Of a stretch of DNA of 64,000 bases, positions 4,551 to 40,250 are shown piece after piece (position 1 is the stretch's first letter; the number at the start of each line of letters is the position of its first letter). Under the pieces are notes generated by a model that was given only the letters and a program-made list of their open reading frames with translations, was not told the DNA's origin and made no database searches. The position numbers and the translations under genes are program-made. Source of the DNA: Gammaproteobacteria bacterium (GTDB lineage: Bacteria > Pseudomonadota > Gammaproteobacteria > SZUA-229); contig JAOUKV010000019.1 of NCBI GenBank assembly GCA_029882355.1, positions 1-64,000 on the forward strand, read 5' to 3'.

Positions 4551-4590
4551 TTGATTTATATCAAAGACAATTTTCGATTAAAAATATTAT
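4551..4590 (+). promoter_or_regulatory. FNR/ANR-type box and -10 of the sulfur globule gene
   Basis: TTGATTTATATCAA at 4551-4564 is a perfect match to the FNR consensus TTGAT-N4-ATCAA. TATTAT at 4585-4590 is a good -10, with its centre 30 bases after the box centre. That is roughly the geometry of an FNR-activated class II promoter (box near -41). The predicted start site near 4597 leaves a leader of about 43 bases before the ATG at 4640. The box match is seen directly; activation by an FNR homologue is inference. Confidence 0.7.
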
Positions 4591-4639: not shown

Positions 4640-5074
4640 ATGATCATTTTAAAGAAAATTTCGGCTGTAATTTTGGTTGCTGGTATTGCAGCTTTTACAA
4701 TGCAATCTGCCAACGCCTGGTGGGGGCCCTACAATAATGGTTATAACAATGGCTGGGGTAACAACGGCTGGGGCAACAATAACTGGGGGAATAATGGTAA
4801 CGGTTGGGGCAATGGCTGGAGCGATGGCTCAGGTGATTTTGATGGCAGCTTCAGCTTCGGCATGAGTGGCAAGAGTTCTGGCAGAGGTTATGGCAATGGA
4901 TATGGCAGCGGCTATAACGATTATTACGGCAATAATTACTACGGTAATAACTACGGTTACGCGCCCTATGGTTATCGTGCACCCTATGGTTATGCACCTT
5001 ACTGGCAGGGTCCAAACCGTATTCCACCAGCACCAACTGCGCCACCGGCTGCTGAGAAAACACCCGCCAAATAA
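4640..5074 (+). CDS. Sulfur globule family protein
   Basis: This is a 144-residue secreted structural protein of low complexity. A signal peptide ends in SANA before WWGPYNN. The mature chain has NNGWGNN repeats (residues about 30-58), a GSFSFGMSGKSSGRGYG block, tyrosine-rich YGYAPYGYRAPYGYAPY repeats, and a Pro/Ala tail. This composition and order match the Sgp envelope proteins that coat periplasmic sulfur globules in sulfur-oxidising gammaproteobacteria such as Allochromatium. RBS: ACGGAG at 4628-4633. Low-complexity composition is partly convergent, so a different extracellular structural role cannot be excluded. It appears monocistronic. Confidence 0.75.
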   Translation: MIILKKISAVILVAGIAAFTMQSANAWWGPYNNGYNNGWGNNGWGNNNWGNNGNGWGNGWSDGSGDFDGSFSFGMSGKSSGRGYGNGYGSGYNDYYGNNYYGNNYGYAPYGYRAPYGYAPYWQGPNRIPPAPTAPPAAEKTPAK

Positions 5075-16611: not shown

Positions 16612-16722
16612 CTATGTAATATAGCCAGCTACATAGATAAGAAAATTGACACCTACCAGCACTAAAATAGCTACTCTAAAGCTATACCAGTCATCTTTCA
16701 CTTCAACTGAATGATTTTCCAT
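16612..16722 (-). CDS. 36-residue single-pass membrane protein, unannotated small gene
   Basis: The frame encodes MENHSVEVKDDWYSFR, then one strongly hydrophobic helix (residues about 16-34), and stops right after the membrane segment. AAAGGAG lies 7 bases before the ATG, one of the best ribosome sites in the window. A TATAAT and an FNR-like dyad sit upstream at class II spacing. The polar acidic N-terminus is probably cytoplasmic. Size and control recall small subunits of respiratory oxidases, but I see no sequence identity to CydX, CcoM or CcoQ that would justify a name. Confidence 0.65.
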   Translation of the reverse strand: MENHSVEVKDDWYSFRVAILVLVGVNFLIYVAGYIT

Positions 16723-16755
16723 TTTTAATCTCCTTTTAGAATTTCTCATACGATA

Positions 16756-16796
16756 ATTATATTAATATTCAAGGCAGAAAAATTGAGGTAGATCAC
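16756..16796 (-). promoter_or_regulatory. FNR/CRP-like box and -10 of the 36-residue gene
   Basis: On the minus strand GTGAT-CTAC-CTCAA (16783-16796) matches the FNR consensus at 8 of 10 specified bases; it also half-fits a CRP site. A perfect TATAAT (16756-16761) lies with its centre 31 bases downstream, similar to the spacing before the sulfur globule gene. Start site predicted near 16748. Confidence 0.5.
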
Positions 16797-19483: not shown

Positions 19484-20212
19484 TTATAGCCCCCCTCTGA
19501 GCTTTAATGCTCTAAATGTTGCTCCAACCGTATATGCTGATGTTTTATAATGATTTGTCGCCAGCATCTGTACATCATCAAAACCAGCCTCTCCCATAAT
19601 TTTAATCAACTCACTACTTGTTAATGTACCCGCAATACAATCAGCCCAGGACTCATCTTCACAACAACTCGTCGAAATGTTATTTTCGTCTTTTATCATG
19701 TCACAAAAAAATAATCTGCCATTATTTTTTAAGACACGGTAAATTTCTGCAAAAACAGCTTCTTTATATAATGATAAATTTATCGCACCATTTGAAATCA
19801 CCACATCAACACAGCTATCTTCAACAGGTAGTTTTTCGTCATCGCCCTGATATACCGTTATATTTGATAGCCCAGCCAATGTCGCATGCTGCCTGGATTT
19901 CTCAACCATCGCCGGTGTAACATCAAGGCCCAGCACCTTGCCTTTTTCTCCAACTAATAAAGCTGCCACACAAAGATCAACACCAGCACCACAACCAATA
20001 TCCAGCACAGTTTCACCTGCATGCAGTTCACCCGCACTAAATGGGTTGCCGACAGCGGCACAGTAGCTCCATATTACTTCTGGAATACTATTTATCCATG
20101 CTCCCTTATAATGATGATTAAGCGCATTTTGCATACCTTTATCCCAGCCGAAATCCTTGCCAGGGTTAGTCGCAAAATCTGTATATAAATCTATAATTGA
20201 ATACCGGTTCAT
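19484..20212 (-). CDS. ArsM-like SAM methyltransferase
   Basis: This 242-residue class I methyltransferase has the SAM loop DIGCGAGVD near residue 71-79, motif II LGLDVTPAMV near 94, and ISNGAINLS near 139. The layout follows bacterial arsenite methyltransferases, including CIAGTL near 192. However, the Cys that ArsM proteins carry in ISNCVxNL is Gly142 here, while an extra CC pair lies at 183-184. Arsenite methylation is therefore doubtful and another small-molecule substrate is possible. Confidence 0.7.
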   Translation of the reverse strand: MNRYSIIDLYTDFATNPGKDFGWDKGMQNALNHHYKGAWINSIPEVIWSYCAAVGNPFSAGELHAGETVLDIGCGAGVDLCVAALLVGEKGKVLGLDVTPAMVEKSRQHATLAGLSNITVYQGDDEKLPVEDSCVDVVISNGAINLSLYKEAVFAEIYRVLKNNGRLFFCDMIKDENNISTSCCEDESWADCIAGTLTSSELIKIMGEAGFDDVQMLATNHYKTSAYTVGATFRALKLRGGL

Positions 20213-33785: not shown

Positions 33786-33999
33786 TGCTCTAAACCTATA
33801 ACTGTTATTAATTCAGCGAACCGCGCATTTTACTGATGCCGACATACTTAGTCAAAGACTAATTCCACCATTTTTCAACAGCTTAGATATTGTTCTCTTT
33901 TATATTATCTTTTGTCTGTGGATAAGCCCTATTAACAAGTATAGAATCCACCTTCCTTTTTTATACTATTTCTTGTTTTCGTTACGGAGAACCGCTTCC
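33786..33999. promoter_or_regulatory. rpmH-dnaA intergenic region with one DnaA box
   Basis: This 214-base AT-rich divergent promoter region contains a perfect DnaA box TGTGGATAA at 33917-33925. A single box suggests autoregulation of dnaA rather than a full origin, although pseudomonads place oriC in this gap. GGAG near 33985 serves the dnaA start. Confidence 0.6.
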
Positions 34000-35361
34000 T
34001 TGACCGCGATATATTGGCCTAATTGTTTACAGCAGCTCGAGCAGAAACTCTCTGATCAGCAGTTAAATACATGGATAAGGCCGCTCCAAATTAAAGAAGA
34101 AGAAAACACTATTACTTTACTGGCGCCCAACCGCTTTGTACTTGACTGGGTAACAAAAAATTTCCAGCAACAAATCCGTGACATTCTTATCGAAATAGGA
34201 GCAATCAATGTTTCTTTAACGATTGAAGTCGGCACACAGACAAAATCAGCTAACTCAATACCTGCCTCAAACCCAATATCGGTAGCTAAAAACCTTATTT
34301 TTGAAACAAAAAAAACTACCAGCGATCACCAACATCCGATTGAACACAATCTTAATCCAGCATTCACTTTTGACAGTTTTGTTGAAGGTAAATCAAATCA
34401 GCTAGCCAAGGCTGCATCTTTACAAGTTGCGGAAAATCCTGGCCAAGCCTACAACCCACTTTTTATGTATGGTGGCGTTGGTTTAGGTAAAACCCATCTT
34501 ATACACGCCATTGGCAATAGGATGCTGCAACATAATCCACAGGCCCGTATTGCGTATCTTCATTCTGAACGCTTTGTCGGTAATATGGTTAAAGCCTTAC
34601 AGCATAATGCCATTGACTCTTTTAAACAGCATTATCGTTCTCTAGATGCCTTGTTAATTGATGACATCCAGTTCTTTGCCGGAAAAGAGCGATCACAAGA
34701 AGAATTCTTCCATACTTTCAATGCCTTACTCGAAACTGGTAGTCAGATTATTTTGACCTGTGATCGTTACCCAAAAGAAGTAGAAGGCCTTGAAGAACGA
34801 CTACGTTCAAGATTTGGCTGGGGATTACCTGTTTGTATAGAACCTCCAGAGTTGGAAACTCGTGTCGCCATTTTGCAGAAAAAAGCGGAAGAATATAATA
34901 TTGAGTTTCCAAGTGAAGTGGCCTTTTTTATTGCTAAGCGCATCCGTTCCAATATACGTGAATTGGAAGGTGCTTTTCGTCGTGTTATGGCAACAGCTAA
35001 TTTTACAAAAAAACCAATTACACTTGATTTGGCTAAAGACGCATTACGTGATCTAATTGCACTTCAGGATAGGGCGATCACCATTGAAAATATACAAAAA
35101 ACAGTCGCTGAATATTACAAAATTCGAAGTTCTGATTTATTATCCAGTCGTAGAAGTCGCTCTATAACAAGACCTCGACAACTAGCAATGGCTTTATCTA
35201 AAGAACTAACTAACCATAGCCTACCTGAAATTGGTGAAGCCTTTGGCGGAAGAGATCACACAACAATTTTACATGGTTGTCGTAAAATAGCAGAACTTAG
35301 GGACTCAGACGCGAAAATAGACGAAGATTATAAAAATTTAATGCGTATTTTAAGTAACTAA
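34000..35361 (+). CDS. dnaA: Chromosomal replication initiator
   Basis: This 453-residue AAA+ protein melts the origin and recruits the replicative helicase. Domain I is at 1-85 and a Ser/Asn-rich linker follows. The ATPase has Walker [11 protein letters not shown] near 159 and Walker [13 protein letters not shown] near 222. The DNA-binding domain ends with [15 protein letters not shown]. The TTG at 34000 is chosen because [17 protein letters not shown] aligns with DnaA N-termini; the frame opens 9 codons earlier at another TTG (33973). Confidence 0.96.
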
Positions 35362-35602
35362 TAACAACTTGTGGATAAACTGTTATCAGGCTCTTCGTAA
35401 AATGTAGACGAAAATTAACAAAAAAGTTATCCACAATTGATCTACAGGATGGGGGCAGAATACCCCCCGTATATATTGCTTTATTTCTTACCTAAAGCTT
35501 TGAATAATAAGGGGTTATTGGCTTTATCCAAGTTATTAATGGGTACTAATAATAACAATAAGTATATAAATAAAGAACTATTACTAATAAGGCATCACTA
35601 AA
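35362..35602. other. oriC: Candidate replication origin (dnaA-dnaN gap)
   Basis: This 241-base gap has two perfect DnaA boxes in opposite orientation (TGTGGATAA 35370-35378 and TTATCCACA 35427-35435). It also has degenerate matches (TTATCAGGC near 35383, TTATCCAAG near 35524) and a very AT-rich stretch at about 35530-35590 that could unwind. The layout is compatible with oriC but the number of boxes is small. Confidence 0.55.
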
Positions 35603-36703
35603 ATGAAATTTCAAATTCAAAGGGACAACTTGCTTAATTCTTTACAGCAAATAATTGGTGCTGTAGAAAAAAGGCAAACAATGCCTGCTTTATCCAATGT
35701 ACTGATTAAGGCTGATAATGATTCGTTATCACTTACAGCAACAGATTTAGAAATTGAATTTGTTACCAATTTAAATATGGTCATAGATGAACCAGGTGAG
35801 ATCACCGTACCTGCACGAAAGTTATTAGATATATGCAAGTCACTACCAACTGATTCTCAAGTGAATATCACAATTAAAAATGAAAAAGCCATGATCCAAT
35901 CTGGCCGTAGTCGTTTCTCTTTGGTTACACTACCTGCTTCAGATTTTCCCTCCTTGGATGAAATAAGCTCAAATTCCGAGTTTGAAATACCACAAAAAAC
36001 ATTAAAAGATATTATTGATAAAACATCATTTGCTATGGCACAACAGGATGTTCGTTATTATTTGAATGGTCTAATGCTGGAAGTAGGTTCCAAAATATTA
36101 AGAGCTGTAGCGACTGATGGTCATCGTTTGGCTTATTGTGAAAAAGAAACTGATTGTGAATTAGCTGATATTAAACAAGTTATTCTTCCGCGTAAGGGTG
36201 TTATTGAATTAGCGCGTTTGTTAGATACTAGCGAAGATAAGGTTAAAATAATTTTAAGTAACAATCATCTTCGTGTTGAATTAAATAATATTCGATTCAC
36301 ATCGAAATTAATTGATGGACGTTTTCCTGATTACAATCGTGTAATCCCAGATGATGGTAACCATGTAATGTCAGCTGAGCGCGAAGTTTTAAAACAAGCT
36401 TTAATTCGCGCATCAATACTTTCTAATGAAAAGTATCGTGGAATACGCTTAATTTTAGAAGAAAATTTAGTACGTCTACAGGCACATAATCCTGACCAGG
36501 AAGAGGCCGATGTCGAACTTGAAGTTAATTATAGAGGTGAAACTTTAGAAATTGGTTTTAATGTAAATTACATGATAGATGCACTAAACGCAGCTAGCTC
36601 AGAAATTGCACAACTAACATTGAGAGATTCTAATAGTAGTTGTTTGCTAACTTACCCGGATCAACCTGATTGCAAATATGTCATCATGCCGATGCGACTC
36701 TAG
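35603..36703 (+). CDS. dnaN: DNA polymerase III beta sliding clamp
   Basis: The 366-residue clamp forms a dimeric ring that tethers polymerase III to DNA. It begins MKFQIQRDNLLNSLQQIIGA, contains the three repeated clamp domains (including RAVATDGHRLAYCE near 170 and DGRFPDYNRVIP near 240), and ends in the partner-binding tail YVIMPMRL. It precedes recF by 25 bases. Confidence 0.97.
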   Translation: MKFQIQRDNLLNSLQQIIGAVEKRQTMPALSNVLIKADNDSLSLTATDLEIEFVTNLNMVIDEPGEITVPARKLLDICKSLPTDSQVNITIKNEKAMIQSGRSRFSLVTLPASDFPSLDEISSNSEFEIPQKTLKDIIDKTSFAMAQQDVRYYLNGLMLEVGSKILRAVATDGHRLAYCEKETDCELADIKQVILPRKGVIELARLLDTSEDKVKIILSNNHLRVELNNIRFTSKLIDGRFPDYNRVIPDDGNHVMSAEREVLKQALIRASILSNEKYRGIRLILEENLVRLQAHNPDQEEADVELEVNYRGETLEIGFNVNYMIDALNAASSEIAQLTLRDSNSSCLLTYPDQPDCKYVIMPMRL

Positions 36704-36728
36704 TTTTAGCTAGCAAAAAAGGACTGTT

Positions 36729-37808
36729 ATGCATTTAATGCAGTTACAGATCCAGAACTTTCGAAATCTAACTGAGATTAATTTCGAACCAGTTGATGGT
36801 GTAAATCTTATAACCGGATTAAATGCTTCAGGTAAAACCAGTTTACTCGAAGCTATTTATTACCTTAGTCACCTTCGATCATTTAGAACTCACCAGATTA
36901 GTGATTTAATTAAACACCAGTCAACCGAATTGCAATTAGTTGCAAAAATTCATACTGATTCAAATAATCAAATACCGCTAGGGATCAAGCGCAGTCGTCA
37001 TAAACTTGAAGTTCGTGCTAATCGACAACCGATTAAAAGGGTGGCTGATATTGCTACACTATTTCCCGTCCTAACTATTCATCCCGACAGTTATAAACTC
37101 ATTACAGGCAGTCCTTCAGAAAGAAGACAGTACATGGACTGGGGCGTGTTCCACGTGGAACATGATTTTTTTGGCGTATGGCAAAGATTCAAAAGAGCGC
37201 TATCACAACGTAATGCTGCATTAAAATCCAGGCAGAATGATGATTATTGTTCATTGTGGGATAAAGAGCTATTTGATATGGCTACTTATATCGATAACTT
37301 AAGAAGTAAGTATTTAAGTAATTTGCAGTCATATTTGAATAATCTAATGCTTGAATTTTTTAAGGATCAGTCTGTAGAAGTAACATACAAGCGTGGCTGG
37401 AATAATGAAGCAAGTCTTGATAGCTTGCTAAAAAGTGAATTAAATAAGGATAGGTTAAAGGGGTTTACTCAATACGGACCACATCGGGCTGAGTTAAGTA
37501 TCAAGGTAGATGGACAGTCTGCGCAAACGGGAATATCCAGGGGGCAGCAGAAAACACTGGTTGCTTTGTTGAGATTGGCCCAGGCACAGCAGTTTACAGA
37601 GAGTACAGGTAGAAATTGCATCTTACTGTACGATGACCTGGCTGCAGAATTAGATCTGCCGCACAGGAAAAAAATACTAAAAGTTTTATCCAAAATGAAG
37701 ACGCAGCTATTTTTAACTTCCATAGAAATAGATCAGGTTGATTTATCTGCATGGGATATTAAAAAAATGTTCCACGTGGAACAAGGTAAGCTGAAAGACC
37801 TGATATAA
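36729..37808 (+). CDS. recF: Recombination mediator RecF
   Basis: RecF helps load RecA at gaps. The 359-residue SMC-like ATPase has Walker A GLNASGKTSLLEA near residue 29, signature SRGQQKTLVALLRLAQ near 270-285, and Walker B LLYDDLAAELD near 299. AAAGGA lies upstream of the ATG. The coding sequence includes two perfect parS palindromes, translated as VFHVEH and MFHVEQ. Confidence 0.95.
   Translation: MHLMQLQIQNFRNLTEINFEPVDGVNLITGLNASGKTSLLEAIYYLSHLRSFRTHQISDLIKHQSTELQLVAKIHTDSNNQIPLGIKRSRHKLEVRANRQPIKRVADIATLFPVLTIHPDSYKLITGSPSERRQYMDWGVFHVEHDFFGVWQRFKRALSQRNAALKSRQNDDYCSLWDKELFDMATYIDNLRSKYLSNLQSYLNNLMLEFFKDQSVEVTYKRGWNNEASLDSLLKSELNKDRLKGFTQYGPHRAELSIKVDGQSAQTGISRGQQKTLVALLRLAQAQQFTESTGRNCILLYDDLAAELDLPHRKKILKVLSKMKTQLFLTSIEIDQVDLSAWDIKKMFHVEQGKLKDLI
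37147..37162. promoter_or_regulatory. parS: parS centromere site 1 (inside recF)
   Basis: TGTTCCACGTGGAACA is a perfect 16-bp palindrome matching the chromosomal parS consensus TGTTNCACGTGNAACA bound by ParB. It is close to oriC, as expected. parA and parB are not in the window. Confidence 0.85.
37768..37783. promoter_or_regulatory. parS: parS centromere site 2 (inside recF)
   Basis: This is an identical 16-bp palindrome, TGTTCCACGTGGAACA, 621 bases after site 1 and 26 bases before the recF stop codon ends. Two identical sites within one gene are very unlikely by chance. Confidence 0.85.
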
Positions 37809-37826
37809 TCACGACTTACTCGATAA

Positions 37827-40250
<2,424 letters not shown>

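Follow-up and report, generated by a model that had tools for sequence, protein, structure and literature searches.

Genes for small membrane proteins frequently escape annotation, and new subunits of respiratory complexes have repeatedly come from among them. CcoM, a subunit of the cbb3 oxidase of Pseudomonas stutzeri, is a single-pass protein of 36 aa (PMC10433244; PDB 5djq chain N). The cytochrome bd small subunits CydX and AppX are likewise small, single-pass and linked to respiratory enzymes, while subunit IIa of the ba3 type (1ehk/1xme chain C) has ~34 aa, one helix and a charged N-terminus. Among stress-associated small membrane proteins, YohP of E. coli has 27 aa (PMC12719787). The gene analysed here lies in a 64,000-nucleotide stretch of DNA, referred to as the window, and encodes a protein that equals CcoM in length (36 residues) and in its single transmembrane helix, and resembles subunit IIa in its helix and charged N-terminus. 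In contrast to CcoM, whose charges lie at the C-terminus, this protein carries them at the N-terminus, and the two show no detectable alignment. Subunit IIa does not align either, and the IIa place in the genome's own ba3-like operon is occupied by a separate 53-aa ORF. CydX and AppX differ in that bd oxidase was undetected in all seven genomes of the genus. YohP, likened by description only, is shorter and differently regulated.

The 36-residue protein and the conservation of its frame

The coding sequence occupies positions 16612-16722 of the window on the minus strand, stop included, and encodes MENHSVEVKDDWYSFRVAILVLVGVNFLIYVAGYIT. The initial annotation had taken it to be too short for normal gene calling; its length of 111 nt is above the default minimum of Prodigal, a common gene finder (90 nt). 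The initial annotation had proposed a real gene whose product has one transmembrane helix behind an acidic N-terminus, and both proposals were borne out. The KD19 maximum was 2.4 in the copies of all three species that carry the gene, and AlphaFold2 modelled one helix spanning residues 3-35 (mean pLDDT 84.9). The hydrophobic part begins at about residue 17, and the R/K just ahead of the helix suggests that the N-terminus is inside; the protein is acidic and lacks a basic tail. A short conserved frame with one transmembrane helix, the hallmark of small single-pass membrane proteins, was thus found here. Searches of Pfam, NCBIfam and PDB with the protein returned nothing meaningful, the weak PDB matches being receptor helices, and the sole PHROG match (E=0.011) was discarded as a short hydrophobic stretch.

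Orthologues were found in two other species of the genus, G001 (54% identity, E=1.4e-9) and G006 (65% identity, E=3.9e-9), and both were also recovered by a scan of genome contigs. A frame broken in close relatives would have spoken against a gene; in both species it was intact, with no stops and no frameshifts. The three-species protein alignment contained 16 invariant columns out of 36, including D11, W12, G24, N26 and Y30. In the pairwise comparisons, codon differences fell mostly on third positions (16, 14 and 13, versus 6-8 at first and 4-6 at second positions), with dN/dS values of 0.18, 0.22 and 0.16. On these comparisons, the frame is under purifying selection and belongs to a genuine gene for a predicted small membrane protein, which represents an orphan family within an already established general type.

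Distribution and gene neighbourhoods

Every genome of the genus with a completeness of 97% or more, namely the own, G001 and G006, carries the gene. The remaining four of the seven are 71-89% complete, and in them neither a copy (profile search) nor a decayed remnant (genus-wide DNA search) was found. When the family and the order, which contains this family only, were searched with a profile (54 genomes each), only the three carriers matched at E<=0.01, and in an even sample of the class (369 genomes) the window's own copy was the sole match. Likewise, the contig scan matched only the G001 and G006 species, both metagenome-assembled Gammaproteobacteria, and no relatives of the protein were found in the plasmid and viral sequences searched. 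From this distribution, the gene looks restricted to the genus and is possibly patchy within it. The four genomes of genus g12 each gave weak profile matches (E ~0.03-0.05), which were rejected as an unrelated 60-residue two-helix protein (MDWMQITSALFLG...); the remaining weak matches sat within long unrelated ORFs. The 60-residue protein itself (MDWMQITSALFLGAM...PKAEKGDWMSFIIPIAAVIGFVILLIMMVQ; L016, L017, L018 and L021, around position 1501) is strongly conserved in 4/4 g12 genomes, which belong to the same family.

The genes flanking the 36-residue gene, named by eye, were different in each of the three genomes and none was conserved. In the own genome they were genes for a lipoprotein and for a reductase similar to 3-hydroxyisobutyrate dehydrogenase; in G001, dnaE and a gene of the TetR family; and in G006, a methyltransferase-like gene and a gene for a secreted protein. 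Since the neighbours differ in all three, the gene probably forms its own transcription unit, and by this comparison it travels with its promoter and not with a cluster. Elsewhere in the window, a protein encoded at 19484-20212 looks by eye like a methyltransferase and has an insert containing cysteine (STSCCEDESWADCIAG); it may resemble an arsenite methyltransferase, though a short one. Look-alikes of dnaA, dnaN, recF and gyrB stand in a row at 33973-40250 (by eye), so that the window probably spans a replication origin.

The promoter and its predicted activator

All promoter elements lie on the minus strand. The Shine-Dalgarno sequence AAGGAG (16730-16735) stands 7 nt before the ATG in a block, GGAGATTAAAAATGG, that is invariant in the three species. 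The -10 hexamer is a perfect TATAAT (16756-16761), replaced by TATACT in G001 and G006, and its distance to the ATG is identical in all three species, with the -10 and the ribosome binding site in register. A putative operator of the Crp/Fnr family, GTGATCTACCTCAA (TTGAGGTAGATCAC on the plus strand), occupies 16783-16796, in class II position: the gap to the -10 is 21 bp, and the dyad centre lies at about -40.5 from the predicted start, no more than 1 bp off the class II value (-41.5). The dyad is in register in two of the three species, with GTGATCTATTTCAA at its place in G006, and is degenerate in G001. The layout put forward in the initial annotation (a strong ribosome site, a perfect TATAAT and a dyad at class II spacing) was therefore confirmed, as was the claim that the gene has its own promoter, the -10 and leader being kept in register among differing neighbours. 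A consensus scan listed no sigma-70 -35/-10 pair at the TATAAT, as would be expected of an activator-dependent promoter.

FNR-like dyads with at most two mismatches numbered 78 in the window against 58 expected, so the dyad alone is not significant. Such a dyad combined with a perfect TATAAT at 21-23 bp, a ribosome binding site and a start codon occurred once, against 0.03 expected per 64 kb of first-order Markov sequence, a combination that was defined after it had been seen. Conservation supplies the independent and decisive test. The frame, the -10 and the leader are conserved amid different neighbourhoods, which argues for an independently transcribed gene and not a chance frame.

The assignment of the promoter to FNR, also claimed initially, is less settled than its class II dyad. 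The site is a hybrid, with one GTGA half (CRP-type) and one TTGA half (FNR-type), and in the own copy it scores 8/10 to both consensus sequences. We favour FNR as the probable activator because of the genome context: a canonical FNR, with the Cys motif CGQCNLNELC and the recognition helix ETVSR, is encoded close to the cbb3 operon, and a genome-wide count of perfect FNR dyads gave 25, versus 5 in a reversed control, a fivefold enrichment. The intergenic ones include sites before moaA and before c-type cytochromes (names by eye). It is somewhat unlikely, but the best placed of the alternatives, that the same real gene is activated instead by a CRP (Vfr-like) paralogue, in which case the signal would be the cAMP or nutrient state and not oxygen. 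The left half of the dyad, TGTGATCTA, is identical to the CRP consensus half-site, and a CRP-type regulator with the motif SREMAGRV is encoded in the genome. Across species, too, the CRP match at the dyad is kept in register at 8/10 (own), 8/10 (G006) and 7/10 (G001), whereas the FNR match is 8/10, 8/10 and, in G001, at most 6/10 anywhere, no FNR site with fewer than four mismatches being left there. Against CRP, the right half, TCAA, is FNR-type, and CRP palindromes are not enriched, with 2 perfect ones genome-wide versus 1 in the control and 27 in the window versus 34 expected. Matches to the hybrid site with at most one mismatch elsewhere in the genome formed no coherent regulon.

The same control logic had been attributed to a gene at 4640-5074 of the window, which encodes a Gly/Asn/Trp/Tyr-rich secreted protein and had been called a sulfur globule gene. 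This held only loosely: upstream, at 4551-4564, stands a perfect FNR dyad, TTGATTTATATCAA, but its spacing to the closest -10-like hexamer, TATTAT, is 20 bp. Low-oxygen control looks more convincing at this gene than at the 36-residue gene.

Candidate roles of the protein

Our best reading, held with somewhat less than even confidence, is that the protein is induced by low oxygen and serves as an accessory subunit of a membrane complex whose genes lie elsewhere. An activator of the Crp/Fnr family, most likely FNR under low oxygen, would bind the predicted dyad and recruit RNA polymerase to the promoter, which lacks a -35 box. The protein would then insert in the inner membrane, its acidic N-terminus facing the cytoplasm, and a conserved helix face (A18, G24, N26 and Y30), together with W12 as an anchor, may pack against a larger membrane protein encoded at another locus. 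Such packing is suggested by the conservation of W12 and of the polar or small residues G24 and N26 within the helix. In this way it could serve the respiratory chain as an accessory subunit or as one that modulates it. Against FNR as the driver, the dyad is imperfect (8/10), equally CRP-like and lost as an FNR site in G001; against a subunit role, the oxidases found are also present in congeners without a detected gene, genomes that are 71-89% complete. A more specific form, which we regard as rather doubtful, is a lineage-specific subunit of a respiratory complex, encoded apart from it and switched by FNR or CRP, which would represent a new small-subunit family in a denitrifying or sulfur-oxidising respiratory chain.

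Two other roles are less probable still, to a similar degree. In the first, the small protein would act on the membrane itself, by YohP-like metabolic silencing or as a type I-toxin-like peptide, and not as a subunit. Its small size and single hydrophobic helix agree with this, and under stress YohP alters the fluidity and the potential of the membrane (PMC12719787); however, the residue-level conservation, including N26 and W12, suggests a specific partner, and the protein is acidic, with no basic tail. Short of a systematic search, no sign of an antisense RNA was noticed.

The second ties the protein specifically to a terminal oxidase, as an accessory subunit of the CcoM or IIa kind, in line with the resemblance to oxidase accessory subunits noted in the initial annotation. 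CcoM offers a precedent of the same size and topology, and the genome has cbb3, aa3-like and ba3-like oxidases (types by eye). The resemblance found no support: BLASTP gave no alignment with CcoM at E<=100, PDB searches with the sequence and with the profile gave no 5djq match, and with cytochrome c oxidase subunit IIa there was neither an alignment nor a Pfam match. The gene adjoins no oxidase gene, so it is not in the position of subunit IIa before subunit II. PF01654 (cytochrome bd) was found in 0/7 genomes of the genus, with positive control searches, and no oxidase was specific to the three carriers. Moreover, the cco operon already has CcoQ (by eye), and the ba3-like operon has its own small ORF. 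These tests removed the specific support for an oxidase role, which is only a guess, and are compatible with an accessory role in some respiratory complex. The small ORF just mentioned is a 53-aa membrane ORF, MSEENNLPKPERIPFFQRM... (L096, 7365-7204, minus strand), which opens the ba3-like operon (by eye) with 7192-4915 and has an FNR-like site, TTGATATAGATCAT, upstream; it is a probable unannotated small subunit.

Finally, a chance frame with chance promoter-like elements is highly improbable even though FNR-like dyads with two mismatches are frequent by chance, a reading already refuted by the conserved frame, the third-position bias of its substitutions and the promoter spacing kept in unrelated neighbourhoods.

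Whether or not its product is a subunit, the 36-residue gene is validated as coding for a small membrane protein, has a conserved promoter and matches nothing in the family libraries that were searched. The evidence so far makes it an orphan at the level of the genus, of local importance; its assignment to a partner would show how low-oxygen respiration is tuned in an uncultured Gammaproteobacterium.
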